Source: Starkeya sp. ORNL1 (GTDB taxonomy: Bacteria > Pseudomonadota > Alphaproteobacteria > Rhizobiales > Xanthobacteraceae). Taken from it: 64,000 nt of DNA. The stretch lies in the NCBI RefSeq assembly GCF_012971745.1, contig NZ_CP048834.1, positions 3,348,001 through 3,412,000 of the forward strand. Reading direction: 5' to 3'. The position numbers and the translations under genes were made by a program. Below, piece after piece: positions 3,308 through 61,682 of the stretch (position 1 is the first letter of the stretch; the number at the start of each line of letters is the position of its first letter). The notes beneath the pieces are model-generated. The model saw only the letters and a program-made list of their open reading frames with translations, searched no databases and had not been told where the DNA came from.

Positions 3308-4062
3308 ACATCGCCGTTGCACCGCCAGTCACTCACCACACCGCTGGCTTGGGGCTGTCGTTCGAAAATCTCGGCCGCAGCTTCGGCGCCAAGCGGGTGC
3401 TCGAAGGTGTCAATCTCCACATCCCCGCCGGCCAGTTCGTCGCCGTCATCGGCAAGAGCGGCTGCGGCAAGAGCACGCTGCTGCGCCTGCTCGCCGGGCT
3501 CGATGAGCCGACCAGCGGCCGCATCGCCTTCAGCGGTGCGCATGACGCCGCCTCGATCCGCATCATGTTCCAGGAGCCGCGTTTGCTGCCCTGGCAGCGC
3601 GTGGTCGCCAATGTCGAGGTCGGGCTGCCGCCCTCCGTGACCGGCGACGTACGCCGTGACCGCGCCGGCGCCATCCTTGCCGAGGTCGGGCTCGCCGATC
3701 GTGCCGGCGAGTGGCCTTCGGTGCTGTCCGGCGGGCAGAAACAACGCGTCGCTTTGGCCCGCGCGCTCGCCAGCCGGCCGCGCGTGCTGGCGCTCGACGA
3801 GCCGCTCGGCGCGCTCGATGCGCTGACCCGCATCGAGATGCAGAGCCTCATCGAGCGCATCTGGCTGGAGCAGGGCTTCACCGCCGTGCTGGTGACGCAC
3901 GACGTCGCCGAGGCGCTGGCGCTCGCCGACCGGGTGATCCTGATCGATGGCGGGCGCATCGCGCTCGATCTCGACGTGCCGCTGCCGCGCCCGCGCCGCC
4001 GCGGCTCGGCGGAGATCGCCCGGCTGGAAGGGCAGATCCTGGAGCGGCTGTTCTCCGCCTGA
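3304..4062 (+). CDS. ssuB: aliphatic sulfonate ABC transporter ATP-binding protein SsuB
   Basis: 252 residues with Walker [11 protein letters not shown]-loop [12 protein letters not shown], signature LSGGQKQR, Walker B VLALDEP and the switch histidine in VTHDVAEAL. The Q-loop wording with LLPW is usual for the SsuB/TauB/NrtD group. The ATG at 3304 overlaps the permease stop. It energises the SsuC permease on the cytoplasmic face of the membrane. Sulfonate specificity rests mainly on the adjacent SsuA. Confidence 0.9.
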
Positions 4063-4094
4063 CACCTATCCCACGCTGAAAGGGGCGAACCATC

Positions 4095-20344: not shown

Positions 20345-20463
20345 GTTAGCCGCTGTGATCGAGGGAGCGCCGGTCTGGCGCCTTGCTGCAGTGCAGGATA
20401 GATTTGCGGCAATGAGGGAGAAACGAGGCTGTTCTTCCGCTCATCCCGGAACAGAACGCTCGA

Positions 20464-21408
20464 ATGGGTACCGCCATGGATGGGTTGAGCGGCTTGATCG
20501 CCTTCGTGCGCACCGCGGATCTCGGCAGCTTCGTCGCCGCCGGGCGGGTGCTCGGCCTGTCGGCGTCCGCGGTCGGCAAGTCGGTGACCAAGCTCGAGCA
20601 CCAGCTCGGCGTCCGGCTGTTCCAGCGCTCGACGCGCAGCATCAGGCTGACCGAGGAGGGCCGGCTGTTCCATGAGCGCTGCCGGCGCATCCTTGACGAG
20701 CTGGACGATGCCCGCGCCGCGCTCGCCCGGGCGATGGAGGCGCCGCGCGGTCGGCTGCGGCTGAGCGCGCCAATCGTCAGCTACCATCTGCTGCTGCCGG
20801 TGTTGCCTGATTTCGTCGCCCGCTATCCAGAGATCGAGCTCGACCTCGACTTCAATGACCGCATCGTCGACCTGATCGAGGAAGGCGTCGACGTCGCGAT
20901 CCGCAGCGGTGACCTGCCGGATTCACGATTGATGGCGCGGGCGCTCCGGCCGTTCCAGCTGCTGCTGTGCGCCTCGCCCGAATATCTCGCGCGTCACGGC
21001 GTGCCGGACTGTCCGCGCGATCTCGACCGTCACCTCGCCATACGCTTCCGCTTTCCCAACAGCGGCAAGCTCCAGGACTGGCCTTTGACATTGCCGCCGG
21101 GCGAGCCGGAGCTGCGCACCCGCACCATTATCACCTGCAACAACATGGAAGCGCTGCGCGGCGCCACGGTGCGCGGCCTCGGCATTGGCTGCATGCCGGA
21201 TTTCCTGGCGCACGAGCCGCTGGCGCGCGGCGAACTGCGTGCCTTGCTGGTCGACCACATAGATGGTCCGGCGCAGTTCCATCTGCTGTGGCCCTCGAAC
21301 CGCCATTTGTCGCCCAAGGTGCGGGTGATGGTGGATTTTCTCGGCGAGCGGCTGTTTGCTTCGCAATGCGAGGCGCTGCCCTGCGAGGAGCATGTGGTGG
21401 CCGGTTAG
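20464..21408 (+). CDS. LysR-family transcriptional regulator
   Basis: 314 residues, AaeR-like group: MDGLSGLIAFVRTADLGSFVAAGRVLGLSASAVGKSVTKLE forms the HTH, and the effector domain has DLIEEGVDVAIRSGDLPDSRL. ATG 20464 is used; the in-frame ATG at 20476 gives the more typical family start and may be the real one. About 120 bp separate it from the divergent MFS gene, which is the probable target. Confidence 0.85.
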   Translation: MGTAMDGLSGLIAFVRTADLGSFVAAGRVLGLSASAVGKSVTKLEHQLGVRLFQRSTRSIRLTEEGRLFHERCRRILDELDDARAALARAMEAPRGRLRLSAPIVSYHLLLPVLPDFVARYPEIELDLDFNDRIVDLIEEGVDVAIRSGDLPDSRLMARALRPFQLLLCASPEYLARHGVPDCPRDLDRHLAIRFRFPNSGKLQDWPLTLPPGEPELRTRTIITCNNMEALRGATVRGLGIGCMPDFLAHEPLARGELRALLVDHIDGPAQFHLLWPSNRHLSPKVRVMVDFLGERLFASQCEALPCEEHVVAG

Positions 21409-21426
21409 CCGAGCATTCCGCCGCCA

Positions 21427-21533
21427 CGTCATCCTGAGGTGCGAGCGTAGCGAGCCTCGAAGGATGTTGAAGCAGAGGTCGGTCATCGGGACGGGCATCC
21501 TTCGAGGCCGCTTCGCGGCACCTCAGGATGACG
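21427..21533. repeat. palindromic intergenic repeat, CGTCATCCTGAGG family
   Basis: Outer arms CGTCATCCTGAGGTGC and GCACCTCAGGATGACG are perfect inverted repeats. The inner arms GCCTCGAAGGATG and CATCCTTCGAGGC also pair. It lies between a LysR gene and the convergent AraC-type gene, so it may end transcription from both sides. Other copies or remnants: 30727-30827, 36325-36440, 52621-52633 with 54055-54090, and 62571-62686. Confidence 0.8.
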
Positions 21534-21567
21534 TGGCTCTCGTTTCGGGAGTGAGTTTTGGTCTGCC

Positions 21568-22605
21568 CTAAACACGCGGCGGCACGGTCGATAGCCGGCG
21601 CACTTCGGGGCGGTAGGCCTGGTTCTGCTGGCGGCGCAGCGAGGCACGGAAGTCGCGGGGGGTCATGCCGAACTGGGCGCGGAAGGTGCGCGACAGCACG
21701 CCGGGATAGGAAAAGCCGCAGGCTGTGGCGATGTCCTTGATGCCGAACTCCTCATAGAACAGCATGTTGCGGGCAGCCTGGAGCCGGATGCGCAGATAGA
21801 GCCGTGCCGGGGTCTCGTCGAAACGGCGGCGGCATTCGCGCAGCAGCGTCTTCGCCGAGACGCCGAGCCGCTCGGCGATGTCCTCCAGTGCCAGCGGGAA
21901 ATCGAGGTTCTGCTCCATCAGCCCCACGATGCGGTCCGACAGCGCCGGCTGGGCCACCGGTGTGGACGGCGCATCCGGACGCTGCGCGGCGGTGGCGGCG
22001 CGCGGTACATAGACCAGGGCATTGGCCACCTCGCTCGCCAGCGTCGAGGTCTCCAGCCGTGCGATCAGGTCCAGCATCATGTCGAGCGTGGCGATGCCGC
22101 CGGCGCAGCTGACGCGCTGGCCGTCGACCAGATAGAGCTGGCCGTTGACGTTGAGCTCGGGGAAACGCTCGCGGAAGGTCGGCACCGCCTCCCAGTGCAG
22201 CACCACGTCCCGCCCGCTCATCAGGCCGGCCTGCGCCAAAGCGAAGGCGCCGGTGTCGACCGCGCCGATCGAAGCGCCGAAGCGGGCGGCGGTGCGCAGC
22301 TGGTTCAGCAGCTTGGGCGAATTGCGCTGCATCGGCAGGTTGCCCTCGAACACCAGATAGAAATCCGCCTGCACCATGGTCTGCAGGCTGTCGTCCGCCG
22401 ACATCCATAGCCCGTTGCTGGCCCGCACCGGCGCACCGTCCTCGGAGACGAAGCGCCAGCGGAAGATCTCGCGGCCGCTATTCTGGTTGGCGATGCGCAA
22501 CGCCTCGCTGGCGAGCACCAGCGCGTTCAGCGGAAATTCCGGCTGGAGGATGAGATTGAAGGTCGGGACATGGGTGCCCGAAGATTTCTCGGCCTGCGCC
22601 TCCAT
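21568..22605 (-). CDS. GlxA-family AraC-type transcriptional regulator
   Basis: 345 residues: a DJ-1/PfpI-like domain (about 12-195; note SIGAVDTGAFALAQAGLM and VSCAGGIATLDMML) and a C-terminal AraC double HTH (about 225-330; LEDIAERLGVSAKTLLRECRRRF, IKDIATACGFSYPGVLSRTFRAQFGMTP). ATG 22605 starts at the conserved N-terminus; the longer upstream frame runs through the promoter region. It is divergent from the operon beginning at 22872 and is its likely activator. GlxA-type regulators often respond to amino acids or quaternary amines. Confidence 0.85.
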   Translation of the reverse strand: MEAQAEKSSGTHVPTFNLILQPEFPLNALVLASEALRIANQNSGREIFRWRFVSEDGAPVRASNGLWMSADDSLQTMVQADFYLVFEGNLPMQRNSPKLLNQLRTAARFGASIGAVDTGAFALAQAGLMSGRDVVLHWEAVPTFRERFPELNVNGQLYLVDGQRVSCAGGIATLDMMLDLIARLETSTLASEVANALVYVPRAATAAQRPDAPSTPVAQPALSDRIVGLMEQNLDFPLALEDIAERLGVSAKTLLRECRRRFDETPARLYLRIRLQAARNMLFYEEFGIKDIATACGFSYPGVLSRTFRAQFGMTPRDFRASLRRQQNQAYRPEVRRLSTVPPRV

Positions 22606-22871
22606 CCTGTTCACCCCAATCACACTGCCGGCGGCTGCTTGTCCCACAATGTTAATAACAAGTCCGTTTTCGTCAATTGATCCGACCAAATGCCGGGAAG
22701 TATCGATACAAGAAATGTTTTCAGGGCACCGGGCCGCCGCCTGCGACGAGGCGGCCAGAATCCCTGATCCGTTGACATCACTGGCATCTGGCACGCGACG
22801 CCGTCGTCCGTGAGCGCTCCCGCTCGCGCCGGCCACGGCCCGTCTTTGCCCGCAGGAACGAGGTTGCCGAC
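22606..22871. promoter_or_regulatory. divergent promoter region with 10-bp palindrome
   Basis: 266 bp between the GlxA-type gene and the lyase-dehydratase operon. It is AT-richer than its surroundings around 22640-22730 and holds the perfect palindrome GTATCGATAC (22700-22709), a plausible regulator site. Another AT-rich segment ATGTTAATAACA lies at about 22650-22661. Promoter positions cannot be fixed by eye. Confidence 0.4.
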
Positions 22872-23843
22872 GTGCAGACCGAAGCGTTGAAGAAGAAGCT
22901 CGAAGGCTGCTACGTCACGGTGCCGACGCCGTTCCGCGACGAGGCGGGATTTCCCGTCGACGAGGCGGCGCTGCGCACCTATGTACGTTTCCTGATCGAG
23001 GGCGGCCTGACCGCTGAGACCGCGACTTTCCTCGCCGGCGGCGCAGCGGGCGACTTCTCCACCATGAGCTTTCAGGAGCGGGTGCGCGTCGCTGAGATCG
23101 TGGTCGACGAGGTCGGCGGCCGGGTGCCGGTGGCGATGGGCGCGCAGACCACCAGCACGCTGGAACTGGTCGAGCTGGCGAAGGCCGCACACCGCATCGG
23201 TGCCGACTTCATCCAGGTGTCGTGCCCGTTCTATTTCACCCATACCGAAGGCGACTTCGAGGAGTTCGTGCGGGCGGCCGCCGATGCGGCGCCGGATATC
23301 GGGCTGATCGTCTACAACACCTTCTGGACCACCACGAACATCTCGTTCGAGATGGTGGAGCGCCTCGCCGAAATCCCGAACGTGGTCGGGTTGAAATGGG
23401 CGACGCCGCGCACCGACGCCATGGAGTTCGAGAGCGTCGCGGCGCGTTTCTCGAAGCGCTTCACCATCATCGACAACAATCTGTTCTTCGCCTTCAGCGC
23501 CATGCCGGCGCTCGGCGCCAAGGCGTTCGAAGTGCACCTGTGCAACTTCTGGCCCGAATGGGGGCTTAAGCTGGTCCGCGAGATCGGCGCCGCCAACTAT
23601 GTCGAGGTCGCGCGCATGCTCGTCGATGAAGCCATGCCGTTCTACAAGCTCTGGGTCGAGATCGAGCGCGATTTCACCAGCGGTGACGGCTATCTCGACA
23701 AGCTGTGCATGGAACTGGTGGGACTGCCCTCCAGCCGCTGCCGCCCACCGACGCGTGACGTGCGCGAACGCTACCGGGCGGCGACGCTCGACATGATGCG
23801 CCGCATCGGCACTCCCAATCTGGTCCAGTTCGAGGAGGCATGA
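22872..23843 (+). CDS. DHDPS/NAL-superfamily lyase (dihydrodipicolinate synthase family)
   Basis: 323 residues, TIM-barrel class I aldolase/dehydratase. The Schiff-base lysine is in VVGLKWATP and the conserved tyrosine in IVYNTFW. The usual GTTGE loop that binds the 2-keto acid carboxylate reads GGAAGDF here, with both Thr replaced, so true DHDPS activity is unlikely and an altered substrate is expected. GTG 22872 begins the frame. First gene of an eight-gene operon and overlaps the next gene by ATGA. Relatives with known function split or dehydrate 2-keto-3-deoxy acids. Confidence 0.8.
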   Translation: MQTEALKKKLEGCYVTVPTPFRDEAGFPVDEAALRTYVRFLIEGGLTAETATFLAGGAAGDFSTMSFQERVRVAEIVVDEVGGRVPVAMGAQTTSTLELVELAKAAHRIGADFIQVSCPFYFTHTEGDFEEFVRAAADAAPDIGLIVYNTFWTTTNISFEMVERLAEIPNVVGLKWATPRTDAMEFESVAARFSKRFTIIDNNLFFAFSAMPALGAKAFEVHLCNFWPEWGLKLVREIGAANYVEVARMLVDEAMPFYKLWVEIERDFTSGDGYLDKLCMELVGLPSSRCRPPTRDVRERYRAATLDMMRRIGTPNLVQFEEA

Positions 23844-24139
23844 TGGCGGGCGCGGCGAACCTCATCGTGCTGGCGGCCGGCGACAATGTCGGCATCGCGC
23901 TGCGCGACATCCCCGCGGGGGACGTCGCGGCGACGCTGGCCGGCCTGTCGCTGCTGGCCGAGGAGCCGATCCCGCAGGGCCACAAGATCGCGCTTCACGA
24001 CATCGCCGCGCAACAGGACGTGGTGCGGCTCGGCATGCCGGTCGCCATCACCAGGGAAGCGATCGCCAGGGGCCATCTGGTCCATGTCCACAATGTCGCG
24101 AGCCGCTATCTCAATAATGACGAGGACCATTATGAGTAG
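23840..24139 (+). CDS. UxaA-family small subunit (SAF domain)
   Basis: 99 residues, a stand-alone SAF domain: AGDNVGIALRDIPAGD, PIPQGHKIALHDIA, AIARGHLVHVHNVASRY. In altronate dehydratase this domain is fused to the large domain. In (R)-sulfolactate sulfo-lyase (SuyA) and some sugar-acid dehydratases it is a separate subunit, as here. The ATG overlaps the lyase stop, with an alternative ATG 3 bp on. Its stop overlaps the large-subunit start by 8 bp, fitting a 1:1 complex. Confidence 0.8.
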   Translation: MMAGAANLIVLAAGDNVGIALRDIPAGDVAATLAGLSLLAEEPIPQGHKIALHDIAAQQDVVRLGMPVAITREAIARGHLVHVHNVASRYLNNDEDHYE

Positions 24140-25382
24140 CCTCGGCATCGAAACTCCTGCCCCGTCCGTGGCGAGCCCGGTGATCGCGAACCGCATGCGC
24201 GGCTATGCGCGCCAGGACGGGCGCAAGGGCATCCGCAATTACTTGCTGGTCGCTTATCTGGTGGAGTGCGCGCACCATGTCGCGCGCATGATCGCGGCGC
24301 CCCACCAGCAAGGCGGCGTGCAACTGGTCGGCTTCCCCGGCTGCTATCCGAGCGACTATGCCGACCGTGTCATGACCGACATCGCCACCCACCCAAATGT
24401 GGGCGCGGTGCTGCTGGTGTCGCTCGGCTGCGAGGAGTTCCAGCGCACCCGGCTGAAGGCCGCCATCGCGGCGAGCGGACGGCCGGTGGAACTGCTCACC
24501 ATCCAGGCCTGCGGGGGCACCGCCGGCACGGTGGCGCGCGGGCGGGAGTGGGTCGAGCAACAGCTGGTCTCGCTCACCGCGGCGCCTACCGTGCCGGTCG
24601 GGCTTTCCGACCTTGTCATCGGCACCAAATGCGGCGGCTCGGACGGGCTTTCCGGCGTCACCATCAATCCGGCGGTCGGCTTTGCATCGGACCTCCTGGT
24701 CGATGCCGGCGCCGCGGTGATGTTCGAGGAGACCTGCGAACTGATCGGCTGCGAGGAGCACATGGCGTCCCGTGCGGTGACGCCCGAACTCGCCGAGGCG
24801 CTGCGCGCGGCGGTGCGCAAGGCCGACGAATACTACACCGCGCTGGGGCATGGCAGCTTCGGCGGCGGCAACATCAAATACGGCCTGTCGACGCTGGAGG
24901 AAAAGTCGCTCGGCGCCTATGCCAAGAGCGGCTCGCGGCCGATCCGCGGCGTGCTGAAGCCCGGCGTGCGCCCGCCGTCCGGTGGTCTCTATCTGATGGA
25001 CACCGTCAATGACGGGCCGGTGCGCTTCGGCATCCCCAACATCAACGACACCCAGACCATCACCGAGATGGTGGCGAGCGGCTGCCATCTGATCCTGTTC
25101 ACCACCGGCGCCGGCTCGGTGGTCGGGCAGGCGGTGGCTCCGGTGATCAAGGGCGTCTCCAATTCGCGCACCTATCACCGCATGGAAGGCGACATGGATG
25201 TGAATGGCGGCACCATCGCCGACGGGGTCGAGACCGTCGAGGACGTCGGCCGCCATCTGGTCGACGCCATCATCGCCGCCGCCTCGGGCGAGCCGACCAA
25301 GTCGGAGGCGCTGGGGCACCAGGAATTCGTGCTCGCCTACAAGACCTACGAACCGCTCGGCCCCGGCTGCCTGCCGGTCTGA
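24132..25382 (+). CDS. UxaA-family large subunit, diverged dehydratase/lyase
   Basis: 416 residues. It starts at ATG 24132 with the family's RGYARQDGRKGIRN segment. Conserved blocks are LVSLGCE, IQACGGT, GTKCGGSDGLSG, FEETCELIGCEEHM, RMEGDMDVNGG and a C-terminal GPGCLPV. The expected His-x-x-x-Cys element in the first third reads GFPGCYP, so a metal ligand or substrate contact differs from altronate dehydratase. Known relatives are UxaA, GarD and SuyB, all eliminating water or sulfite from a hydroxylated acid using Fe or another divalent metal. The substrate is not predictable from sequence. Confidence 0.78.
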   Translation: MSSLGIETPAPSVASPVIANRMRGYARQDGRKGIRNYLLVAYLVECAHHVARMIAAPHQQGGVQLVGFPGCYPSDYADRVMTDIATHPNVGAVLLVSLGCEEFQRTRLKAAIAASGRPVELLTIQACGGTAGTVARGREWVEQQLVSLTAAPTVPVGLSDLVIGTKCGGSDGLSGVTINPAVGFASDLLVDAGAAVMFEETCELIGCEEHMASRAVTPELAEALRAAVRKADEYYTALGHGSFGGGNIKYGLSTLEEKSLGAYAKSGSRPIRGVLKPGVRPPSGGLYLMDTVNDGPVRFGIPNINDTQTITEMVASGCHLILFTTGAGSVVGQAVAPVIKGVSNSRTYHRMEGDMDVNGGTIADGVETVEDVGRHLVDAIIAAASGEPTKSEALGHQEFVLAYKTYEPLGPGCLPV

Positions 25383-25432
25383 GCGGCACGCCTTACGCGT
25401 CTGGCATCAAGCAAAAACCAAAGGGGATCGTC

Positions 25433-26449
25433 ATGACACTCTCGCACCTATTCGGAAAACGGATGGCGACAGCGGTGCTGCTCGCCGTCGGCATCTTCAC
25501 TGCCGGCGAAGCCAAAGCGCTCGACGATGTGCGCCTGCGCCTCAACTGGATGTGGTACGGCTCCCACGCCGCCTTCGCGCTGGGCAAGGACCGGGGCTAC
25601 TTCAAGGACGCCGGCATCAATCTCGACATCCGCTCCGGCAACGGCTCCGGCTCGGCGCATCGCCTGGTGGCGAACGGCGACAGCACCTTCTCCTATGGCT
25701 CCTGCGCCGGCCTCGTGAACCTCGCCGCCAAGGGCGCGCCGCTGGTCTCGGTGGCGGTGATCGACGCCATGGGCACGGAGGCCATCATCGTGCGCCCCGA
25801 TGCCGGCGTCTCGAAGATCTCCGATCTCAAGGGCAAGAAGCTGCTCACCACCTCCAATGCCGGCGTGAATACCTTCTTCCCGCTGGTGCTGAAGAATGCC
25901 GGACTTACCGAAGCCGATGTCGGCATCATCAATGTGCCGGACGGCGCGCTGGTGTCGAGCTATCTGCAGGGCGCGGGCGGTACCGTCGGCCTGCTCGGCG
26001 GCCTCGACGACAAGCCGGCCGAGATCAAGGCCGCCGGCGGCGCCGCCCCCGTCACCTTCCCCTATTCCGACTATGGCGTGAACCAGGTCGGCTATTGCAT
26101 CGTGACCACGAAGGACACCGTCGCCAAGAACCCGGACCTGGTGAAGCGCTTCGTCGCCGCCACGGTCAAGTCCTACAAGGCGGCAGAAGCCGATCCGCAG
26201 GCGGCGATCAACGCCATGGGCGACATCGTCGGCGGCACCATGAACGAGGACGCCGGCAAGAAGCAGGCCGCCGAGGTGCAGAAGGTCACGCTCGACGTGC
26301 TCTATTCCAAGGCCAATACCGGCAAGGTGCTGGGCCTCAATCAGCCGCAGGACTGGGTCGACATGGTCGACTTGATGAAGAAGTACAATGGCCTCGAGAC
26401 CAAGGAGCCGGCGACCTTCTTCTACACCAACGACTTCCTGCCGAAGTAA
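25433..26449 (+). CDS. NMT1/THI5-type ABC transporter substrate-binding protein
   Basis: 338 residues with a Sec signal peptide of about 29 residues ending near AKALDD. The mature protein shows RLRLNWMWYGSHAAFALGKDRGYFKDAGI, NGDSTFSYGSCAGL, LKGKKLLTTSNAGVNTFFPL and SDYGVNQVGYCI, the layout of SsuA/ThiY/RibY-like binders. AAAGGGGATCGTC precedes the ATG. It is the specificity component of the importer encoded downstream and presumably binds the compound degraded by this operon. This class usually carries sulfonates, pyrimidines or aromatic acids rather than sugars. Confidence 0.83.
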   Translation: MTLSHLFGKRMATAVLLAVGIFTAGEAKALDDVRLRLNWMWYGSHAAFALGKDRGYFKDAGINLDIRSGNGSGSAHRLVANGDSTFSYGSCAGLVNLAAKGAPLVSVAVIDAMGTEAIIVRPDAGVSKISDLKGKKLLTTSNAGVNTFFPLVLKNAGLTEADVGIINVPDGALVSSYLQGAGGTVGLLGGLDDKPAEIKAAGGAAPVTFPYSDYGVNQVGYCIVTTKDTVAKNPDLVKRFVAATVKSYKAAEADPQAAINAMGDIVGGTMNEDAGKKQAAEVQKVTLDVLYSKANTGKVLGLNQPQDWVDMVDLMKKYNGLETKEPATFFYTNDFLPK

Positions 26450-26465
26450 AGCCAGCCTAGCCTCT

Positions 26466-26493
26466 GGCCGGCGGACGCATTCGTCCGCCGGCC
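26466..26493 (+). terminator. strong hairpin after the binding-protein gene
   Basis: Perfect 12-bp stem GGCCGGCGGACG/CGTCCGCCGGCC with a CATT loop, starting 17 bp after the binding-protein stop. It is followed by GCATTGTT rather than a true T-tract, so it is more likely an mRNA-stabilising 3' structure or a leaky terminator than a full stop. Its position parallels the terminator at 6095-6133. Confidence 0.5.
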
Positions 26494-26525
26494 GCATTGT
26501 TCGAGTTGAAGGATCAAGGCACGTC

Positions 26526-27293
26526 ATGGGAGCGACGATCGAGATAAGGTCGCTGGCGAAGACATTCGGCGTCGGGCCGGGCGCGGTGCACGCTTTCGGG
26601 CCGGTGGATCTCACGATCAATTCCGGCAGCTTCGTCTCGCTGCTCGGCCCCTCGGGCTGCGGCAAGTCCACTTTGATGCTGATGATCGCCGGGCTGCTGG
26701 ATGCCAGCGAGGGCGCGGTGTACTTCGACGAGGAGAAGGTCGACGCGCCGCGCACCGATATCGGCATCATGTTCCAGGACAATACGCTGGTTCCGTGGCG
26801 CACGGTGGAGGGCAATGTCGCGCTGCAGCTCGAACTGCGCGGGCTCGACCCCAAGGCCTATGCGGAGCGCATCCGCGACCTGCTGCATTCGGTGAAGCTG
26901 GACGGCTTCGGCGGCCGGCATCCTTACGAGCTCTCCGGCGGCATGCAGCAGCGCGCGGCCTTCTGCCAGGCGCTGGTGCACGAACCGGATACGCTGCTGT
27001 TCGACGAGCCGCTCGGCAAGCTCGACGCCATGACCCGCGAGAGCATCCGCAACGACCTGCAGACGCTGTGGATGAAGCAGCGCCCGACCGTGGTGTTCGT
27101 GACCCATTCCATCGAGGAAGCGGTGCAGCTCTCATCCACGGTGTGCGTGGTGACGCCGCGGCCCGGGCGCATCGAGCGCACCATCGATATCGACCTGCCG
27201 TGGCCGCGCGACCTCGAAGTCAAGGCAAGTCCCGCCTTCACCCATTATGTCCGCGAAATCCAGGGGATCTTCCATGACTATGGTGTCCTCTAG
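26526..27293 (+). CDS. ABC transporter ATP-binding protein (nitrate/sulfonate/taurine class)
   Basis: 255 residues: Walker A GPSGCGKST, Q-loop MFQDNTLVPWRTVEGNV, signature LSGGMQQR, Walker B TLLFDEPLGKLDAM, switch His in VTHSIEEAV. The VPWRT and PLGKLDAM wording is typical of the SsuB/TauB/NrtD class. Starts 76 bp after the binding-protein gene and overlaps the permease gene by 20 bp. Confidence 0.87.
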   Translation: MGATIEIRSLAKTFGVGPGAVHAFGPVDLTINSGSFVSLLGPSGCGKSTLMLMIAGLLDASEGAVYFDEEKVDAPRTDIGIMFQDNTLVPWRTVEGNVALQLELRGLDPKAYAERIRDLLHSVKLDGFGGRHPYELSGGMQQRAAFCQALVHEPDTLLFDEPLGKLDAMTRESIRNDLQTLWMKQRPTVVFVTHSIEEAVQLSSTVCVVTPRPGRIERTIDIDLPWPRDLEVKASPAFTHYVREIQGIFHDYGVL

Positions 27294-28101
27294 AATGCCG
27301 CCGGAACCCGGCCCGATCGCGCGCGCGATCACCGCGACGGGCGTCGCGATCTGGCGCTCCTGGCCATTCCTCGCCTTCTTCGTCGGCTTCTTCCTGGTCT
27401 GGGAATACTCGGTCATCCTCTTCAAGGTCCCCGGCTACATATTGCCGACACCGTCCGAGATCGTACGGCGGGGCTGGGCCGACATTCCCCGGCTGCTCGA
27501 CTATACCGTCATCACCGGCGTGGAGAGCGTGCTCGGCTATCTGCTCGCGATTCTGGTCGGCGTGCCGGTCGGCATCGCCATCGCCTTCTGGACGCCGCTG
27601 CGCCGCACCGTCTATCCGTTCTTCGTCAGCCTCGAGATGGTGCCGAAGATCGCCTTCGCGCCGCTGTTCATCGCCTGGCTCGGCTTCGGCCTGCTGCCGA
27701 AGATCATCATCGTCGTGCTGGTGTGCTTCTTCCCGGTGGCGCTGAATTCGATCCATGCGTTCGGCTCGCTATCCGACGAACTGACCCGCTTCTGCCGCTC
27801 CACCGGCGCCGGGCGACTGCGTACCTTCTGGAAGGTGCGGCTGCCGGCGGCGCTCCCGCAATGCTTCGTCGGCTTCAAATACGCCGCGCTGAACGCCACG
27901 GTCGGCGCTACCATCGCCGAGTTCATGGGTTCCGACCAGGGCCTCGGCTTCTACATCAACATCGCCACCGGCAATATGCGGCCCGACCTCGCCTTTGCCG
28001 GCATCTTCTTCCTGACGCTGCTCGGCCTGGCCTTGTTCGGCTGCGTGACGCTGGCCGAGAAGCTGCTCATTCCCTGGCACATCTCGCAGCGCCGTCATTG
28101 A
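27274..28101 (+). CDS. ABC transporter permease (nitrate/sulfonate/taurine class)
   Basis: 275 residues, six membrane segments. Typical stretches are VPGYILPTPSEIVRRGW, FVSLEMVPKIAFAPLFIAWLGFG and the coupling loop DELTRFCRSTGAGRLRTFWKVRLPAALPQ. ATG 27274 has CAGGGG upstream; an in-frame ATG at 27280 and an earlier one at 27247 are alternatives. With the preceding two genes it forms a complete importer inside the catabolic operon. Confidence 0.85.
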   Translation: MTMVSSRMPPEPGPIARAITATGVAIWRSWPFLAFFVGFFLVWEYSVILFKVPGYILPTPSEIVRRGWADIPRLLDYTVITGVESVLGYLLAILVGVPVGIAIAFWTPLRRTVYPFFVSLEMVPKIAFAPLFIAWLGFGLLPKIIIVVLVCFFPVALNSIHAFGSLSDELTRFCRSTGAGRLRTFWKVRLPAALPQCFVGFKYAALNATVGATIAEFMGSDQGLGFYINIATGNMRPDLAFAGIFFLTLLGLALFGCVTLAEKLLIPWHISQRRH

Positions 28102-28124
28102 TCGACGTGACCGAAGGATTACCG

Positions 28125-29183
28125 ATGGAGCCGCGTTACGCGTACCCCGAGCTCACCAACCTTGCCGCCAGCGTGCTGGAGCACGCCGGCCTGCCGGCCG
28201 AGCCGGCGGCGGCGGTGGCGCGCGGGCTCACCGAGGCCGACCTGCTCGGCCACACCACCCATGGCCTCGCTCTGCTTCCCGACTATGTCGAGGAACTCGA
28301 CAATGGCACCATGGAGCGCGAAGGTCGGCCTGCCATCGTCAGCGACCATGCGGCGGTGGCGACTTGGGACGCACGGCGCCTGCCAGGGGTGTGGACCACG
28401 GCGCTCGCCGTCGAGGACGCGGCGAAGCGCGCCACCACCTTCGGCATCGGGGCGGTGGCGATCCGGCGCAGCCACCACATTGCCTGCCTCGCCACCTTCC
28501 TCGAAGCCCCGGCGCGGGCGGGCACCTTCGTCCTGGTATTCTCGTCCGACCCCAGCGACGCCCATGTCGCGCCTTTTGGCGGGCTGACCCCGGTGATGAC
28601 GCCGAACCCGATCGCCGCCGGCATTCCGGCCGCGCCCGACCCGATCCTGATCGACGTATCCACCTCCATCACCACGGCGGCGATGTGCGGGCGCACCCGC
28701 GCCGCCGGCGGTCGGCTCCAGGGCGCCTGGGTAAAGGACCGCGACGGCAATGCCACCGACGATCCCATTGCCTTCAAGGAGGGCGGCTCGATCCTGCCTA
28801 TCGGCGGGCTCGACCACGGCCACAAGGGCTATGGCCTCTCCCTGATGGTGGAGGCGTTGACGCAGGGCCTCGGCGGCTATGGAAGGGCGGATGCGCCGCG
28901 CGACTGGGGCGCCGGCGTGCTGGTGCTGGCGCTCTCTCCCGCCGCGTTCGGCGGCCTCGACGGCTTCACCCGCCAGACCGGCTGGCTGGCGGAGGCCTGC
29001 CGCGCTGCCCGCGTGCCGGAGGGCGCGCCACGGGTGCGGCTACCGGGCGAGGCTGCGCTCGGCCGCAAGCGGCGCGCGCTCGCGGAGGGTGTCGCGTTGC
29101 ATGCCGGCATTGCCGACGATCTCGGCAAGCTCGCCGCCCGGTTCGGCTTGCCGGCTCCCGTTCCCCTCACCGTTCCCGCCTGA
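28125..29183 (+). CDS. Ldh_2-family 2-hydroxyacid dehydrogenase
   Basis: 352 residues, malate/L-lactate/ureidoglycolate dehydrogenase superfamily. Signatures are ADLLGHTTHGLAL, the catalytic His in RRSHHIACLATFLE, VMTPNPIAAGIPA and GHKGYGLSLMVEAL. NAD(P)-dependent oxidation of a 2-hydroxy acid, or reduction of a cyclic imine or 2-keto acid, is typical. One member, ComC, is (R)-sulfolactate dehydrogenase, which is notable beside a SuyAB-like pair. AAGGA precedes ATG 28125, and the gene is 23 bp after the permease gene. Confidence 0.83.
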   Translation: MEPRYAYPELTNLAASVLEHAGLPAEPAAAVARGLTEADLLGHTTHGLALLPDYVEELDNGTMEREGRPAIVSDHAAVATWDARRLPGVWTTALAVEDAAKRATTFGIGAVAIRRSHHIACLATFLEAPARAGTFVLVFSSDPSDAHVAPFGGLTPVMTPNPIAAGIPAAPDPILIDVSTSITTAAMCGRTRAAGGRLQGAWVKDRDGNATDDPIAFKEGGSILPIGGLDHGHKGYGLSLMVEALTQGLGGYGRADAPRDWGAGVLVLALSPAAFGGLDGFTRQTGWLAEACRAARVPEGAPRVRLPGEAALGRKRRALAEGVALHAGIADDLGKLAARFGLPAPVPLTVPA

Positions 29184-29207
29184 TCGCACTAAAGGAGACC
29201 ACCGCCC

Positions 29208-30707
29208 ATGAGCGCCTATAAATCCGCCGAGCAGTATCGCGATGTCGCCGGCCGCCTGGCGATCCCGTCGAAGGCCTTTATCGACGGCGCGTGGCAGGCG
29301 GCCTCTTCGGGCAAGGTCTTCGAGAATATCGACCCGGCGACGGGCACGATCCTCGGCCTCGTCGCCTCGTGCGACGGCGCCGATGTGGATCGTGCGGTGA
29401 GCGCGGCACGACGCTCCTTCGAGGATGGCGGCTGGTCGCGCGCGGCGCCGGAAGAACGCAAGGCGGTGCTGCTGCGCCTCGCCGACCTGGTGCGCGCCAA
29501 TGCCGAAGAGCTGGCGGTGCTGGAGAGCCTCGACAGCGGCAAGACCATCAAGGACTGCCTCAACGAAATCGGCAACGAGGTGCCGACCTTCTTCCAGTGG
29601 TACGGCGAGCTTGCCGACAAGACGTTCGGTAAGGTGGCGCCGACCGCCGAGAAGGTGGTCGCCATGATCGTCAAGGAGCCGATCGGCGTCGTCGGGCTGG
29701 TGCTGCCGTGGAACTTCCCGCTGCTGATGGCGGCCTGGAAGCTCGCCCCGGCGCTTGCCGCCGGCTGCTCGGCAGTGCTGAAGCCGGCCGAGCAGACACC
29801 GCTCTCCGCGCTGCGCCTTGCCGAACTCGCCATGGAAGCCGGCCTGCCGGCGGGCGTGCTGAATGTGGTGCCGGGCTTCGGCGAGACCGCCGGCCAGGCC
29901 ATCGGCCGGCACAATGACATCGACGCGGTGTCCTTCACCGGCTCGACCGAGGTCGGCGCCTATTTCCTGAAATATGCCAGCGAGAGCAATCTCAAGCCGG
30001 TCGGGCTGGAGATGGGCGGCAAGAGCCCGCTGATCGTGCTCGACGATGCCGACATCGACGACGCGCTGGTCTCATCCGCCATCAGCGCCGCCTTCTGGAA
30101 TGGCGGGCAGAATTGCTCGGCCAACATGCGCCAGATCGTCGACCGCAAGGTGAAGGACGTCTTCCTCGACCGCGTGCTGGAGAAGACCCGGGCGCTGCAG
30201 GTCGGCAACCCGCTCGATCCGGCGACCGACCTCGGCTCGATGGTCAGTGCCGAGCACAAGGAGCGCGTGCTCTCCTATATCGAGATCGGCAAAAGCGAGG
30301 GCGCGCAACTGCTGGCGGGCGGCGGCGCCAGCGAGGGGCTGGCCGGCTCCTTCGTCGATCCCACCGTGTTCGATGGCGTCGACCCGTCGATGCGGGTGGC
30401 GAAGGAGGAAATCTTCGGGCCGGTGCTTGGTGTCATCGGCGTCGATGGTGTCGACGAGGCCTTGAGGATCGCCCGCGATACCGATTACGGCCTGCACGCC
30501 ACCATCTTCACCCGCGACATCGACAAGGCCTTCCACCTCGCCAAGCGCCTGCCGTGCGGCACGGTGGCGGTGAACGGCTTCACCGAGGGCAATGTGACGA
30601 CGCCGTTCGGCGGCTACAAGCGCTCCGGCTCGCTGACCCGCGACAATGGCACCGAGGCGGTGGACCAGTATCTGCAGACCAAGACAATCTGGGTGTCGCT
30701 GAAGTAG
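29208..30707 (+). CDS. NAD(P)-dependent aldehyde dehydrogenase
   Basis: 499 residues. Oxyanion Asn in LPWNFPLLM, cofactor loop SFTGSTEVG, general-base Glu268 in LEMGGKSP, catalytic Cys303 in NGGQNCSANMR, and EIFGPVLGV near the C-terminus. AAAGGAG precedes the ATG. Last gene of the operon. If the DHDPS-like lyase releases a semialdehyde or sulfo-aldehyde, this enzyme would oxidise it to the acid. Close motifs occur in gamma-glutamyl- and ketoglutarate-semialdehyde-type dehydrogenases, but no specific substrate is shown. Confidence 0.87.
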   Translation: MSAYKSAEQYRDVAGRLAIPSKAFIDGAWQAASSGKVFENIDPATGTILGLVASCDGADVDRAVSAARRSFEDGGWSRAAPEERKAVLLRLADLVRANAEELAVLESLDSGKTIKDCLNEIGNEVPTFFQWYGELADKTFGKVAPTAEKVVAMIVKEPIGVVGLVLPWNFPLLMAAWKLAPALAAGCSAVLKPAEQTPLSALRLAELAMEAGLPAGVLNVVPGFGETAGQAIGRHNDIDAVSFTGSTEVGAYFLKYASESNLKPVGLEMGGKSPLIVLDDADIDDALVSSAISAAFWNGGQNCSANMRQIVDRKVKDVFLDRVLEKTRALQVGNPLDPATDLGSMVSAEHKERVLSYIEIGKSEGAQLLAGGGASEGLAGSFVDPTVFDGVDPSMRVAKEEIFGPVLGVIGVDGVDEALRIARDTDYGLHATIFTRDIDKAFHLAKRLPCGTVAVNGFTEGNVTTPFGGYKRSGSLTRDNGTEAVDQYLQTKTIWVSLK

Positions 30708-30726
30708 AGCGCCCACAAGAGAACCG

Positions 30727-30827
30727 CGTCATCCCGAGGTGCCACGAAGCGTCCTCGAAGGATGCCCGCCCCCGATGGGGTCTTCTGCTTGCACATCCTT
30801 CGAGGCTCGCTATCGCTCGAACCTCAG
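30727..30827. repeat. CGTCATCC-family palindromic repeat, interrupted
   Basis: Degenerate left portion of the same family as 21427-21533: CGTCATCCCGAGGTGCC, CCTCGAAGGATG, CATCCTTCGAGGCTCG, ending ACCTCAG. Its missing right end, CTCAGGATGACG, lies at 32249-32260, beyond the inserted 1,421-bp element, and CTCAG is present on both sides. The repeat was therefore the target of that insertion. Confidence 0.7.
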
Positions 30828-30893
30828 AGCCTGACACGAAAACCGACGTATCCGTTGAGAGGAGTCCCTTTCCACCCTCATCCCCGGGCTTGA

Positions 30894-32148
30894 TGTAAAG
30901 ACCGGAGACATCCCTGACAGGTGTTCGGAGACATGCCTGACAGTCAGGGCGGGTCGTGTGGGGGCTTTTTGAGGTCGATGGTTGTGATTCTGGTGGCGCC
31001 GAAGCAGACGGCATAAAGGCCGTCGCGCTTGTGCGGGCGGATGGCGAGGAGTTCGCCGCGGAACGCCTTGGGCACCTTCCAGAGCCGGTTGTTGAAGCCG
31101 ACATAGGCCTTGGTGGTGCCGACCCGGCGGACGATCTCGGCGCTGTCATAGTGCGGTGTGGGCAGGCGCTCCGGGAAGGGCCGCGGCGAGGGTCGGTAGC
31201 GGCTGGCCGGCACGGCGAGGCCGATCCCCTGGTGCGGGCGGACATGGTTGTAGTCCTCGCGCCAGGCTTCGAGCGCGGCCTGGGCCTGATCGAGGCCGCG
31301 CAGGATGGCGAGGTCGAACACCTCGTCGGCAAGGCTGCGGTGGAAGCGCTCGTTCTTGCCGCGGCCCTGCGGGTGGTGGGGACGGGCCGGAATGGTGCGG
31401 ATGCCGAGCTTGAGCAGCCAGACCCGCAGCGGCGTCCACTGCCCCGGGCGGCCGCCGCCCCAGGGCGCGCCATTGTCGACATAGATGGCCTGCGGCAGGC
31501 CGTGGCGGCGCAGCGCCGGCTCCAGCCGGGCGCGCACCGTGGCGGTCTGTTCGTCGGCGCACGCCTCCAGCACCACGGCGTAGCGCGAATGATCGTCGAT
31601 CACCGTCAGCGTATGGCACCACGTGCCGCAGGCGAGTTGCACCCGCCCCTTGAAATCCATCTGCCACAGCTCGTTCGGCGTCGCCCGCTCGAACCGGCCA
31701 TAGGCCTGCGGCCGGCGCGCGGCCGGCGCGATCCGGTCATGGCGGGCCAGCACCGCATGCACCGTCGAGGGGGCCGCCGCGTCCTCCAGCAGCCGCGCCA
31801 GCTTGCGCGCGCCCCACGCCGGATGGGCATCGCGCAGCGCCAGGATCCGGGCCTCCAGATCCGCCGCGCTACGCCGCGGGCTCGCATGCGGGCGCCGCGA
31901 GCGCTCCGTCAGCGCCTCGCCGGCGCGGTAGCGGCGCAGCCACACATAGCCGGTCTGCCGGCTGATCCCGAAGCCCGCGCACAGCGCCGAGACGTTTGCC
32001 CCCTCAAGGCTCGCCAGCAAACAGAACTCCCGCCGCTGATCCGCCACAGATGCCTCCCGCCAGACCATCCCGACCTCCCAGGGCCAAAAGCCCCAAAAGT
32101 GTCAGGCATGTCTCCGAACACCTGTCAGCTATGTATCCAGAACAAACA
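30894..32148 (-). mobile_element. IS481-family insertion sequence, copy 1
   Basis: 1,255 bp from TGTAAAGACC to CAGAACAAACA, flanked by direct repeats CTTGA (30889-30893 and 32149-32153). Subterminal inverted repeats of 28 bp are perfect (30915-30942 against 32100-32127). On the left a related motif GGAGACATCCCTGACAG precedes GGAGACATGCCTGACAG. One transposase gene fills the interior. Differs from copy 2 (52700-53954) at only two visible positions, 31463 and 32130, so both are recent. Confidence 0.8.
30944..32068 (-). CDS. IS481-family transposase (copy 1)
   Basis: 374 residues. N-terminal HTH (VSALCAGFGISRQTGYVWLRRY), then an rve integrase core with the probable DDE residues D138 (QMDFKG), D198 (YVDNGAPWG) and E240 (GKNERFHR), followed by YNHVRPHQGIG. 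Complete and apparently intact, with a product identical to that of the second copy. Catalyses cut/copy and paste of its own element. Confidence 0.88.
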   Translation of the reverse strand: MVWREASVADQRREFCLLASLEGANVSALCAGFGISRQTGYVWLRRYRAGEALTERSRRPHASPRRSAADLEARILALRDAHPAWGARKLARLLEDAAAPSTVHAVLARHDRIAPAARRPQAYGRFERATPNELWQMDFKGRVQLACGTWCHTLTVIDDHSRYAVVLEACADEQTATVRARLEPALRRHGLPQAIYVDNGAPWGGGRPGQWTPLRVWLLKLGIRTIPARPHHPQGRGKNERFHRSLADEVFDLAILRGLDQAQAALEAWREDYNHVRPHQGIGLAVPASRYRPSPRPFPERLPTPHYDSAEIVRRVGTTKAYVGFNNRLWKVPKAFRGELLAIRPHKRDGLYAVCFGATRITTIDLKKPPHDPP

Positions 32149-32266
32149 CTTGACCCGGGGATCCAGACTTCAACCGGGTGCATGCGGAGGGGCTGGATCC
32201 CCGGGTCAAGCCCGGGGATGAGGGCAAATTGGAGTTTTCGGTCAGCCTCTCAGGATGACGTGGTTG

Positions 32267-33100
32267 CTACGCCCGCTCCAGAGCGGGCTCGATCATCTCG
32301 ACGACCACATCACGGCCGGACAGCATGTCCTCGATCGTGGTGTAGTCCTGCATGTAGTGGCCGCGATAGCCGCGGGCTTCCATCGTCGTGAAGAGGCCGA
32401 CGAAATCGAGGTTCCCGGTGCCGGGATAGAGATGCTCCTCGATCACGCCGCGATTGTCGGCGAGCCGGATCTCGCCGATGCGGTCGGCGCCGATACCGGC
32501 CGCCTGCATCTGGTCGAGGAAACCCTGGATGCCGTAGTCCAGCATATGCGCGTGGTTTGAGGTGAAGGCCCAGCGCAGGATCGGCGAGGTGAGATTGGCG
32601 AAATAGAACTTCGCCTCCTCGACATCATGGACCAGGTACTTCACCTCGGCGTCCGCCGGCTCCGGGTTCATGTTCTCCAGGAGGATGGTGACGCCCTCAT
32701 CCTCGGCAATCCGGCACATGCGATCGAGGCGCGCGACGGCAACCTCCATCCGCTCCTGCTTGTCGGCGGTGAAGTGGTAGCCGCCATGCATGATGACCCA
32801 GCCCGCCCCGATGGCGCGGGCCGAACGGAGGTAGGCGATGAGATACTCATCCATCGCCTCCGACAAAAAGCGGCTGTTCTCCGCGACATTCACCGCGGAG
32901 AGCGTATGCAGGCCGAGCGTGATGCCGTTGTCGCGCAGCCGCCGGCCCGCCTCGGCGAGGCGCGGATTGCCGGCATCGAACAGCTCCGGATCGGGATCGA
33001 GGCAGATATTCAGATAACGCACATTATTGCGGATGGCCCAGTCGAGCCCCGGCTCCAGCCCGATGCGCCGGTTGAGATCGACCCCGATGCGTTGCTTCAT
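32267..33100 (-). CDS. xylose-isomerase-like TIM-barrel protein (paralog A)
   Basis: 277 residues, AP_endonuc_2 family. Motifs are IGVDLN, HTLSAVNVAEN, MHGGYHFTADK, ILLENMNPEPADAEVKYL (metal-binding Glu), LRWAFTSNHAHML (His ligands) and LDFVGLF. Shares all of these with the protein at 44679-45500. Family members are metal-dependent isomerases or epimerases of sugars and sugar acids, or hydrolyse related compounds. ATG 33100 matches the start of the paralog; an ATG at 33121 overlapping the tctA stop would add seven residues. Last gene of the first TctCBA operon, so its substrate is probably what that system imports. Confidence 0.78.
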   Translation of the reverse strand: MKQRIGVDLNRRIGLEPGLDWAIRNNVRYLNICLDPDPELFDAGNPRLAEAGRRLRDNGITLGLHTLSAVNVAENSRFLSEAMDEYLIAYLRSARAIGAGWVIMHGGYHFTADKQERMEVAVARLDRMCRIAEDEGVTILLENMNPEPADAEVKYLVHDVEEAKFYFANLTSPILRWAFTSNHAHMLDYGIQGFLDQMQAAGIGADRIGEIRLADNRGVIEEHLYPGTGNLDFVGLFTTMEARGYRGHYMQDYTTIEDMLSGRDVVVEMIEPALERA

Positions 33101-33117
33101 GTTCAAGGCCGTCCTCC

Positions 33118-34614
33118 TCATCCAGCGGTCGCCGGCGCGGTGCGCCGGGCGTAGAGCGCCGCCACCACCGGCACCAGCACGAACAGAACCGCACACAGCA
33201 TCAGCGCCGCCGAGATCGGCCGCGTAATGAAGATGCCGGCCGTGCCGTGGGAGATGGTGAGCGACTGGCGCAGCGAACTCTCGAACATCGGGCCGAGCAC
33301 GAGGCCAAGGATCATCGGCGGCGCCGGCCAGTCGAACCGCTTCATCGCCCAGCCAAGTGCGCCGAAGCCGACCAGCAGCCAGCAATCCTCGAGGCTGTTC
33401 GACTGCGAGAACACGCCGACCAGGCACACCGCCAGGATCGGCGGATAGAGCCACTTGTACGGCACCTTCAAGAGCTGCGCGAACAGGCCGGCCAGCGGCA
33501 GGTTCATGATCAGCAGCAAGAGGTTGCCGATATACATGCTGGCGATGACGCCCCAGACCAGCGTGGTGTTCTGGGTGAACAACTCCGGCCCGGGCCTGAG
33601 CCCGAACATCACCAGCGCGCCGAGGATGATCGCCGTGGTGCCGGAGCCCGGCACGCCCAGCGCCAGCATCGGCACCATGGCGCCGGCCGCGGCAGCGTTG
33701 TTCGAAGCCTCCGGCCCGGCGACGCCTTCGATGGCGCCGTGGCCGAACTCCTCGGGGTGCCTGGAGACCTTCTTCTCGGTGATATAGGCGACGAAGCTGG
33801 CAATGGTCGCCCCCGTTCCCGGCAGCACGCCGACGACGAAGCCGATGAGCGAGCCGCGCAGGATCGGCATGCGGCTGCGCCGCCAATCCTCCCGCGTCGG
33901 GATCACGTTCTTCACCTTGGCGACCGGGCGCGCGACCGCGGTGGTGCAGCCCGCCAGCACTTCGCCGATGCCGAACAGGGCGACGGTGAGCACGATGAAC
34001 TCGATGCCGTCGAGCAGCCAGACCGCGCCGAAATCGAAGCGGCTGACCCCGGTCTGCGGATCGATGCCGATGGTCGCCAGCACCAGACCGGCAACGCCCG
34101 AGGCGAGCCCCTTCACCACCGAGCCGCCGCTCACAGCGGCGAGCGCGACGAGGCCGAGGACGACGAGGGAGAAATATTCCGGCGGCCCGAAGGAGAGCGC
34201 CGCGGTTGCCAGAGGCGGGGCGAGGAAGGTGAGGCCGAGCGTCGAGATGGTGCCGGCGATGAAGGAGCCGATGGCGGCGATGCCGAGCGCGGCGCCGGCG
34301 CGGCCCTTGATGGCCATCTGGTAGCCGTCAATGCTGGTCATCACGGTCGAGGATTCGCCCGGCACGCTGATCAGCACCGAGGTGATGGTGCCGCCATACT
34401 GCGCGCCGTAATAGATGCCGGCGAACATGATGAGCGAGGCCGTGGGATCGGCGCCGAAGGTCAGCGGCAGCAGCAGCGCGATGGCCGCCGCCGGGCCGAT
34501 GCCCGGCAGCACGCCGACCAATTGGCCGAGGAACACGCCGAGGAAGCACATCAGCACGTTGTTGGGGGTCAGCGCAGTGGCGAAGCCGCCCATCAGGTTG
34601 ATCAGCGAATCCAT
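33118..34614 (-). CDS. tctA: tripartite tricarboxylate transporter large permease TctA (system 1)
   Basis: 498 residues, about 12 membrane segments. Family signatures are VLPGIGPAAAIALLLPLTFG and GIYYGAQYGGTITSVLISVPGESST near the N-terminus, and VLPGTGATIASFVAYITEKK with GVPGSGTTAIILGALVMFG in the middle. Forms the carboxylate channel with TctB, fed by periplasmic TctC and driven by the sodium or proton gradient. Ends 17 bp before the TIM-barrel gene. Confidence 0.9.
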   Translation of the reverse strand: MDSLINLMGGFATALTPNNVLMCFLGVFLGQLVGVLPGIGPAAAIALLLPLTFGADPTASLIMFAGIYYGAQYGGTITSVLISVPGESSTVMTSIDGYQMAIKGRAGAALGIAAIGSFIAGTISTLGLTFLAPPLATAALSFGPPEYFSLVVLGLVALAAVSGGSVVKGLASGVAGLVLATIGIDPQTGVSRFDFGAVWLLDGIEFIVLTVALFGIGEVLAGCTTAVARPVAKVKNVIPTREDWRRSRMPILRGSLIGFVVGVLPGTGATIASFVAYITEKKVSRHPEEFGHGAIEGVAGPEASNNAAAAGAMVPMLALGVPGSGTTAIILGALVMFGLRPGPELFTQNTTLVWGVIASMYIGNLLLLIMNLPLAGLFAQLLKVPYKWLYPPILAVCLVGVFSQSNSLEDCWLLVGFGALGWAMKRFDWPAPPMILGLVLGPMFESSLRQSLTISHGTAGIFITRPISAALMLCAVLFVLVPVVAALYARRTAPATAG

Positions 34615-34615
34615 C

Positions 34616-35068
34616 TTACGTGCCCCACGGACCGAGCGGCAGCGGGACTTCGAGCAGATACTCGAAGATGAAGGCGAGCGCGGCGGTGGTGCCGGCCGAG
34701 ACGATGGCGGACCGGATCAGCGGCAGCTTCTCCACATAGGCGTAGAGAAACAGCATCATGCCGAAGAGCGGAATGACGAAGCCGATGAAGCTGCAGGCGG
34801 CGACGGCGACGACGAGCGCCAGCAGGATCTCCATCGACTTGCGGATCGGCTCGCGCTCGGATGTGTCGGTCGGATGGCGGAACGCCGCGACGACGACGCA
34901 GGCCGAGAGGGCGAACAGCAAGATGCCGTAGATCAGCGGCAGGAAGCCGGAATCCGGCGCAAAGCCGGCCCAGAGGGGGAGGTCGAACGACCCCACCATC
35001 CAGACCAGGCCGAGCACCGCGAACATCAGGGCGAACAGCAATTCGCCGGAGAGCGCGGAGTGTTTCAT
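34616..35068 (-). CDS. tctB: tripartite tricarboxylate transporter small permease TctB (system 1)
   Basis: 150 residues with four membrane segments and the TctB pattern GSFDLPLWAGFAPDSGFLPLIYG at the first periplasmic loop. Located 1 bp before tctA and 4 bp after tctC, so clearly co-translated. Required for function of the large permease; specificity lies in TctC. Confidence 0.85.
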   Translation of the reverse strand: MKHSALSGELLFALMFAVLGLVWMVGSFDLPLWAGFAPDSGFLPLIYGILLFALSACVVVAAFRHPTDTSEREPIRKSMEILLALVVAVAACSFIGFVIPLFGMMLFLYAYVEKLPLIRSAIVSAGTTAALAFIFEYLLEVPLPLGPWGT

Positions 35069-35072
35069 GGCT

Positions 35073-40233: not shown

Positions 40234-40238
40234 GCCTG

Positions 40239-61674: not shown

Positions 61675-61682
61675 GGCCAGCC

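Follow-up and report, generated by a model that had tools for sequence, protein, structure and literature searches.

An operon of Starkeya sp. ORNL1 with a divergent DHDPS-like enzyme, replaced dehydrogenase-dehydratase pairs in its relatives and a proposed role in sugar-acid degradation

An eight-gene operon and its two forms

The stretch of DNA analyzed here (the window) comprises 64,000 nucleotides, positions 3348001-3412000, of the 6.29-Mb single-contig genome of Starkeya sp. ORNL1. Eight genes at 22872-30707 of the window lie on one strand (+), with neighbors overlapping by 4-47 nt or separated by 23-76 nt. The first encodes a DHDPS-like enzyme that appears to form its own subfamily (DHD; 22872-23843), followed by the SAF-domain small subunit (23840-24139; PF08666) and the large subunit (UxB; 24132-25382) of a UxaA-type enzyme, a probable sugar-acid dehydratase. 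Next come an NMT1-type periplasmic binding protein (25433-26449; PF09084) and an ABC importer's ATPase (26526-27293; PF00005) and permease (27247-28101; PF00528), then an Ldh_2 family dehydrogenase, the proposed partner of the dehydratase (28125-29183; PF02615), and an aldehyde dehydrogenase (ALDH; 29208-30707; PF00171). All eight proteins matched the expected Pfam family, each above its gathering score. These coordinates and families agree with the original prediction, made from the sequence alone, of eight tightly spaced genes behind a GlxA-type regulator, and they support its description of the locus as an uncharacterized import-and-degradation unit.

The full order, regulator-DHDPS-SAF-UxaA large subunit-NMT1-ATPase-permease-Ldh_2-ALDH, is also found in the nearest named relatives, Bosea sp. 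117 and Ancylobacter species, and in further relatives; it is partly kept in metagenome-assembled genomes of gammaproteobacteria and other bacteria. Because the gene set is retained in such distant bacteria, we conclude that the operon is conserved beyond chance. Its distribution is patchy. Genome searches, in which part of the first-look candidates were scored, found a DHD-subfamily gene (E <= 1e-60) in at least nine of 397 genomes of the order, four of 198 of the family, three of 398 of the phylum and one of 385 of the class, the window's own genome being included in each count. Protein searches covered the best 120 matches, reaching DHD identities down to ~70%.

We then compared the neighborhoods of DHD in 22 clusters, reading stretches of 7-21 kb, so that neighbor counts are lower bounds; L046, L050 and L062 were omitted as repeats of L008, L015 and L010, and L033 and L042 as 3.9-kb loci ending before the dehydrogenase. 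Two cluster types emerged. Type A, with SAF, UxB and Ldh_2, occurs in 14 genomes (the window, L003-L010, L012, L015, L043, L044 and L061). Type B occurs in eight (L045, L047, L048, L058, L059, L060, L063 and L064); these clusters lack SAF-UxB and Ldh_2 and carry a D-2-hydroxyacid dehydrogenase (PF02826) and an enolase-superfamily protein (PF13378, PF02746). Ldh_2 is thus present in 14/14 type A and 0/8 type B clusters, and a complete dehydrogenase-dehydratase pair is found in all 22. At E <= 1e-8, none of the 22 stretches read held both pairs, except for a relative (32% identical) of the type B D-2-hydroxyacid dehydrogenase in the 64-kb window, ~28 kb from the operon. A 23rd cluster, G1082 (L049/L090), which we counted apart from both types, combines Ldh_2 (50%) and a fused UxaA-type dehydratase (40-43%) with the importer and DHD. 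On an Acidimicrobiales contig (L011), a sialidase-fold protein, SAF, UxB and Ldh_2 are adjacent, with no DHD within its 7 kb.

The type B enolase-superfamily proteins share, in all rows compared, a KxR on strand 2, D196, E230/E231, E256 and an Asp-His pair, D279/H306 (numbering by hand). We take D196, E230/E231 and E256 to be the expected metal-ligand positions. Such residues would suit a dehydratase that uses the His as a base on a C2-R acid.

A distinct DHDPS subfamily and a probable two-subunit dehydratase

DHD matched PF00701 at 114.7 bits (gathering cut-off 22.1), and its Schiff-base Lys (K175) and Tyr (Y148), which the original prediction had picked out in a diverged DHDPS-like protein, are invariant in a 49-row alignment. 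The unusual motif noted with them also held up: it reads GGAAGDF in 139/147 sequences and AGAAGDF in 8/147, leaving GAAGDF invariant. DHD fell far below the curated cut-offs for KdgD (TIGR03249; 88.0 bits, cut-off 373.95), DapA (TIGR00674; 78.9 bits, cut-off 206.15) and NanA (TIGR00683; 64.2 bits, cut-off 382), and its best sequence match in the PDB scored 80.5 bits. DHD shares its fold, Schiff-base Lys and Tyr with KdgD and the DHDPS/NAL superfamily and forms, by sequence, a separate DHDPS subfamily with the GAAGDF motif and scores below every curated cut-off tried.

Matches to PF04295 (104.1 bits, cut-off 27.3) and PF20629 (269.5 bits, cut-off 26.8) place UxB in the UxaA/GarD superfamily, in which, according to PMC6336799, four Cys are conserved with the exception of sulfolactate sulfo-lyase. 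C46, C71, C100 and C167 of UxB align with four columns in which both E. coli UxaA and E. coli GarD have Cys. The original prediction of a split, two-subunit UxaA-type lyase is supported, but its reading of GFPGCYP as replacing the usual His/Cys element stands only in part: the His is gone, and the Cys is not lost, as C71 is one of the four aligned residues.

We next placed UxB in a tree of 32 rows, a comparison that had been suggested along with that prediction. UxB falls in a 19-row clade (100/100, on a long branch) formed by the window, its relatives and two-subunit enzymes from Sphingomonas, Ponticoccus, Rhizobium, Caballeronia, Dyadobacter and Pseudovibrio; E. coli UxaA and GarD lie outside. 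Members from L-fucose-type clusters form the sister group (98/98) within this clade, and UxB shares 54-60% identity with the clade's two-subunit enzymes, several of which lie in such clusters. We class the Ponticoccus, Sphingomonas and Caballeronia clusters as L-fucose-type from their apparent gene content. The Ponticoccus neighborhood has a sugar ABC importer, an enolase-family protein, an L-rhamnose mutarotase, an SDR and a fumarylacetoacetate hydrolase. By our reading of unannotated open reading frames, aldo/keto reductase and amidohydrolase genes occur in the Sphingomonas and Caballeronia neighborhoods alike, accompanied by a FucP-like permease in the former and a fumarylacetoacetate-hydrolase-like gene in the latter. 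The 4-kb contig of the Dyadobacter relative shows only an amidohydrolase, and the neighborhoods of the Rhizobium (L065) and Pseudovibrio (L014) relatives hold different genes and are not obviously L-fucose-type.

In PMC6336799, a D-arabinonate dehydratase of the superfamily is characterized; a two-subunit L-fuconate dehydratase (Paraburkholderia mimosarum A19U_RS0100650/655) is assigned from gene context; and D-arabinonate, D-altronate, L-galactonate and D-idonate are named as UxaA-family substrates. These four acids share a common configuration at C2 and C3. The window's enzyme resembles the L-fuconate dehydratase in having separate SAF and large subunits and, judged from the genera in the tree rather than from P. 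mimosarum itself, in its 100/100 grouping with two-subunit enzymes, some of them from L-fucose-type neighborhoods. The operon differs in lacking L-fucose genes and in having the DHDPS-like enzyme, Ldh_2, ALDH and an NMT1 importer. We therefore rejected an L-fucose operon proper, as the nine genes (operon plus regulator) include no mutarotase, SDR, lactonase or fumarylacetoacetate hydrolase.

Further UxaA-type loci were seen in the genomes compared. The window's genome encodes a second, fused UxaA-type protein (L002; G000:C1:4957287-4958459), 41% identical and adjoining a fumarylacetoacetate-hydrolase-like gene. In one genome with a type B cluster (L091; G905:C111), TRAP-transporter and hydantoinase-like genes surround an additional, separate split UxaA pair that shares 60% identity with that of the window.

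The original prediction had favored a sulfonate as substrate. In that account the operon would consume sulfolactate or another C3 sulfonate, with Ldh_2 as sulfolactate dehydrogenase, SAF-UxB as sulfo-lyase and the NMT1 protein as sulfonate binder. The architecture is indeed shared: clusters of the SuyAB (R)-sulfolactate sulfo-lyase type likewise contain split SAF and large subunits near an Ldh-family gene. The nearest group outside the UxB clade (95/88) joins an E. albertii row with two rows from SuyB contexts, Methylobacterium (L068) and Haloarcula (L069), although on long branches that the program flagged; both SuyB-context genes have a TauE/SafE exporter next to them and an Ldh gene nearby. 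However, UxB is only 29-32% identical to these SuyB-context enzymes and keeps all four Cys, of which they lose three. A search for TauE/SafE-type exporters detected both positive controls but none in the window or the 23 relative loci. Ldh_2 scored 140.7 bits against the L-sulfolactate dehydrogenase model NF040650 (cut-off 500), and the binding protein, while weakly SsuA/TauA-like, reached 74.9 bits for NCBIfam SsuA (cut-off 163.5) and 45.4 for TauA (cut-off 304.25). A sulfonate would also leave DHD and ALDH without a role. We rejected this substrate on the identity and Cys of UxB, its tree position, the missing exporter and the profile scores, and consider it highly improbable. The full set of four Cys in UxB, set against the loss of three in the SuyB-context rows, makes it very probable that the enzyme is a dehydratase rather than a sulfo-lyase.

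A proposed non-phosphorylative route and its alternatives

Sugar-acid degradation through a keto-deoxy acid, the alternative named in the original prediction, is now the better reading. We infer a scheme, to which we give an even chance, in which the operon imports a sugar acid and degrades it without phosphorylation. Ldh_2, acting just before the dehydratase, would interconvert a 2-oxo sugar acid with its C2-hydroxy counterpart in the configuration accepted by UxaA-type enzymes. SAF and UxB, as a two-subunit, iron-type sugar-acid dehydratase, would convert the latter to a 2-keto-3-deoxy acid, with which DHD would form a Schiff base, yielding either pyruvate and an aldehyde by cleavage or a semialdehyde by dehydration. 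ALDH would then oxidize the aldehyde. The predicted order is thus 2-oxo acid, 2-hydroxy acid, 2-keto-3-deoxy acid, aldehyde and acid, and type B clusters would reach the same intermediate with an opposite-handed pair, the D-2-hydroxyacid dehydrogenase and the enolase-type dehydratase. The genes, their conservation, the clade of UxB, the residues kept and the exchange of pairs are observations; the reactions, the sequence in which they run and the substrate are predictions.

Ldh_2 enzymes act on L-type 2-hydroxy acids and D-2-hydroxyacid dehydrogenases on D-type ones. Should C2 be set by the dehydrogenase and its stereocenter be lost in the following step, the L-pair and the D-pair would be exchangeable as pairs and not singly, which is the pattern observed; relatives could use the opposite-handed pair because the next step would erase the stereochemistry at C2. 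The paired replacement in relatives therefore hints at how the pathway works. The pair is complete in 22/22 clusters and ALDH was found in 17/22, which favors a dehydrogenase that works alongside the dehydratase over one that acts on the product of ALDH. ALDH was not found in L006, L007, L009, L058 or L059, where it may be encoded elsewhere; the L058 contig ends inside its last gene, and for L063 and L064 the count includes an ALDH fragment ~9 kb away, at the edge of what was read.

The adjacency of Ldh_2 and ALDH at the operon end, together with L-fucose-type clusters holding the closest known relatives of UxB, would also suit a route like those for L-fuconate or L-galactonate. Here SAF-UxB would dehydrate an aldonate, DHD as an aldolase would release pyruvate and L-lactaldehyde or L-glyceraldehyde, ALDH would form L-lactate or L-glycerate, and Ldh_2 would oxidize that product; type B would use the mirror-image substrate. 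The L-lactaldehyde product and the handedness of Ldh_2 in this route are general background. The mutarotase, SDR and fumarylacetoacetate hydrolase of L-fucose-type clusters are, however, all absent from the operon, and Ldh_2 is retained where no ALDH was found (L006, L007 and L009). DHD is moreover nearly unchanged between the types, which would be odd for mirror-image substrates. We regard this route as possible but doubtful.

How the pairs came to be exchanged bears on the non-phosphorylative scheme with its interchangeable pairs. In the DHD tree, type B L048 groups with type A L008, L010 and L061 (100/99), a position that, on the starred branches, requires two or more A/B changes. Only one DHD column separates A from B, at position 319 in the tail, compared with 13 in the binding protein, nine in the ATPase and five in the permease; the means for random labels were 0.24, 1.14, 0.0 and 3.9, respectively. 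Because of the single tail column and the position of L048, the compound handled by DHD is probably the same in types A and B. L048 looks like a type A-lineage DHD joined to a type B block. The importer appears to travel with the enzyme pair, and its ligand might differ between types.

Several points weigh against the scheme. The binding-protein tree (83/94; 20/22 rows, L006 and L007 omitted) and the ATPase tree (95/89; 21/22 rows, L006 omitted) each show a single A/B split with L048 in B, so the pair may have been transferred en bloc, together with an importer for a different ligand, and there were few independent swaps. The binding protein also has the 13 separating columns given above. An importer accompanies both cluster types in 21/22 clusters, the match in L007 being partial (44 of 338 residues of the binding protein), but L006 lacks it, so the importer is not obligatory. 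The direction proposed for Ldh_2 is a prediction, and the handedness of both dehydrogenases is taken from their families in general. Finally, in structural matching of DHD, KdgD tied with DHDPS, leaving aldolase and dehydratase unseparated, and a Thr of its relatives is absent from DHD.

The last points touch a galactarate- or glucarate-like route as well, in which Ldh_2 would prepare the acid, UxB would have the role of GarD and DHD that of the dehydrating decarboxylase KdgD, and ALDH would turn the resulting alpha-ketoglutarate semialdehyde into alpha-ketoglutarate. In KdgD, a Thr holds the C6 carboxylate (PMC13398020). The corresponding position in our alignment is Ala in DHD. The KdgD score of DHD lies far below the cut-off given above, and its structural match is tied with DHDPS. 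UxB and GarD lie in different clades, and the ALDH, which is PuuC-like and below all cut-offs shown, scored 405.4 bits against the alpha-ketoglutaric semialdehyde dehydrogenase model NF042993 (cut-off 770). This route is therefore unlikely.

As for the substrate, the 25433-26449 binding protein gave weak matches throughout when compared with profiles and PDB sequences (4nmy, THI5, a thiamine-pyrimidine binder and taurine binders), and no ligand could be named from them. A sugar-type importer (binding protein), sialidase-fold proteins or both occur in 11/23 clusters, and the window has neither. One tentative and rather improbable version of the route would degrade a 2-ulosonic (2-oxo sugar) acid and treat one stereocenter as disposable. 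In some species, cytosolic sialidase-fold enzymes would release the 2-oxo acid from a glycoside; the acid would be reduced at C2 to either epimer and dehydrated by the fitting UxaA-type or enolase-type enzyme, both lines meeting at one 2-keto-3-deoxy acid for the new DHDPS-family enzyme. In L048, L049/L090, L061 and others, two sialidase-fold (BNR) families with no obvious signal peptide lie beside CUT1-type sugar importers; the nearest solved structure to the one modelled, 5hx0, has no assigned function.

Non-phosphorylative sugar-acid degradation is itself known. The pentose and deoxyhexose pathways in PMC6336799 likewise run through a dehydratase to a 2-keto-3-deoxy acid and its kinase-free breakdown, but differ from the present case in enzyme set, importer and the interchangeability of the dehydrogenase-dehydratase pairs. 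Our literature search on UxaA/DHDPS, keto-deoxy and L-fucose/L-fuconate topics found no description of the operon. What looks new is the DHDPS subfamily, together with the combination of enzymes and their replacement in pairs. The operon would thus add a DHDPS subfamily and a sugar-acid route not found described in the literature searched. The joint exchange of a dehydrogenase and a dehydratase for unrelated enzymes is a natural experiment that predicts reaction order and stereochemistry and could be tested with a few purified proteins.

Regulator and surroundings

The GlxA-type regulator (21568-22605, reverse strand), with DJ-1/PfpI and AraC-type helix-turn-helix domains by Pfam, is divergent from the operon and stays adjacent to it in relatives. 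Its nearest NCBIfam model is GbdR, at 235 bits against a cut-off of 480. A weak candidate regulator site, TGTCC-N16-AGTCC at 22640-22665, contains a GTCC direct repeat 21 bp apart; its conservation across eight loci (0.76) is only slightly better than the surrounding mean (0.69). An Rfam scan of 19000-36000 gave no match, and promoter and terminator scans gave chance levels only.

Directly 3' of the operon lies an rve/IS481-like transposase (30944-32068), which the relatives lack. It is followed at 32267-36047 by another catabolic unit, in which a xylose-isomerase-like TIM barrel protein accompanies TctA and TctC tripartite transporter genes. A second ABC importer in the window, with an NMT1/OpuAC-like binding protein, is encoded at 2447-5060. 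The window is rich in sugar-acid type genes, and elsewhere it encodes a BKACE protein (39319-41085), a second xylose-isomerase-like protein (44679-45500), a D-2-hydroxyacid dehydrogenase (48290-49339) and an SMP-30/gluconolactonase-like protein (61671-62558).

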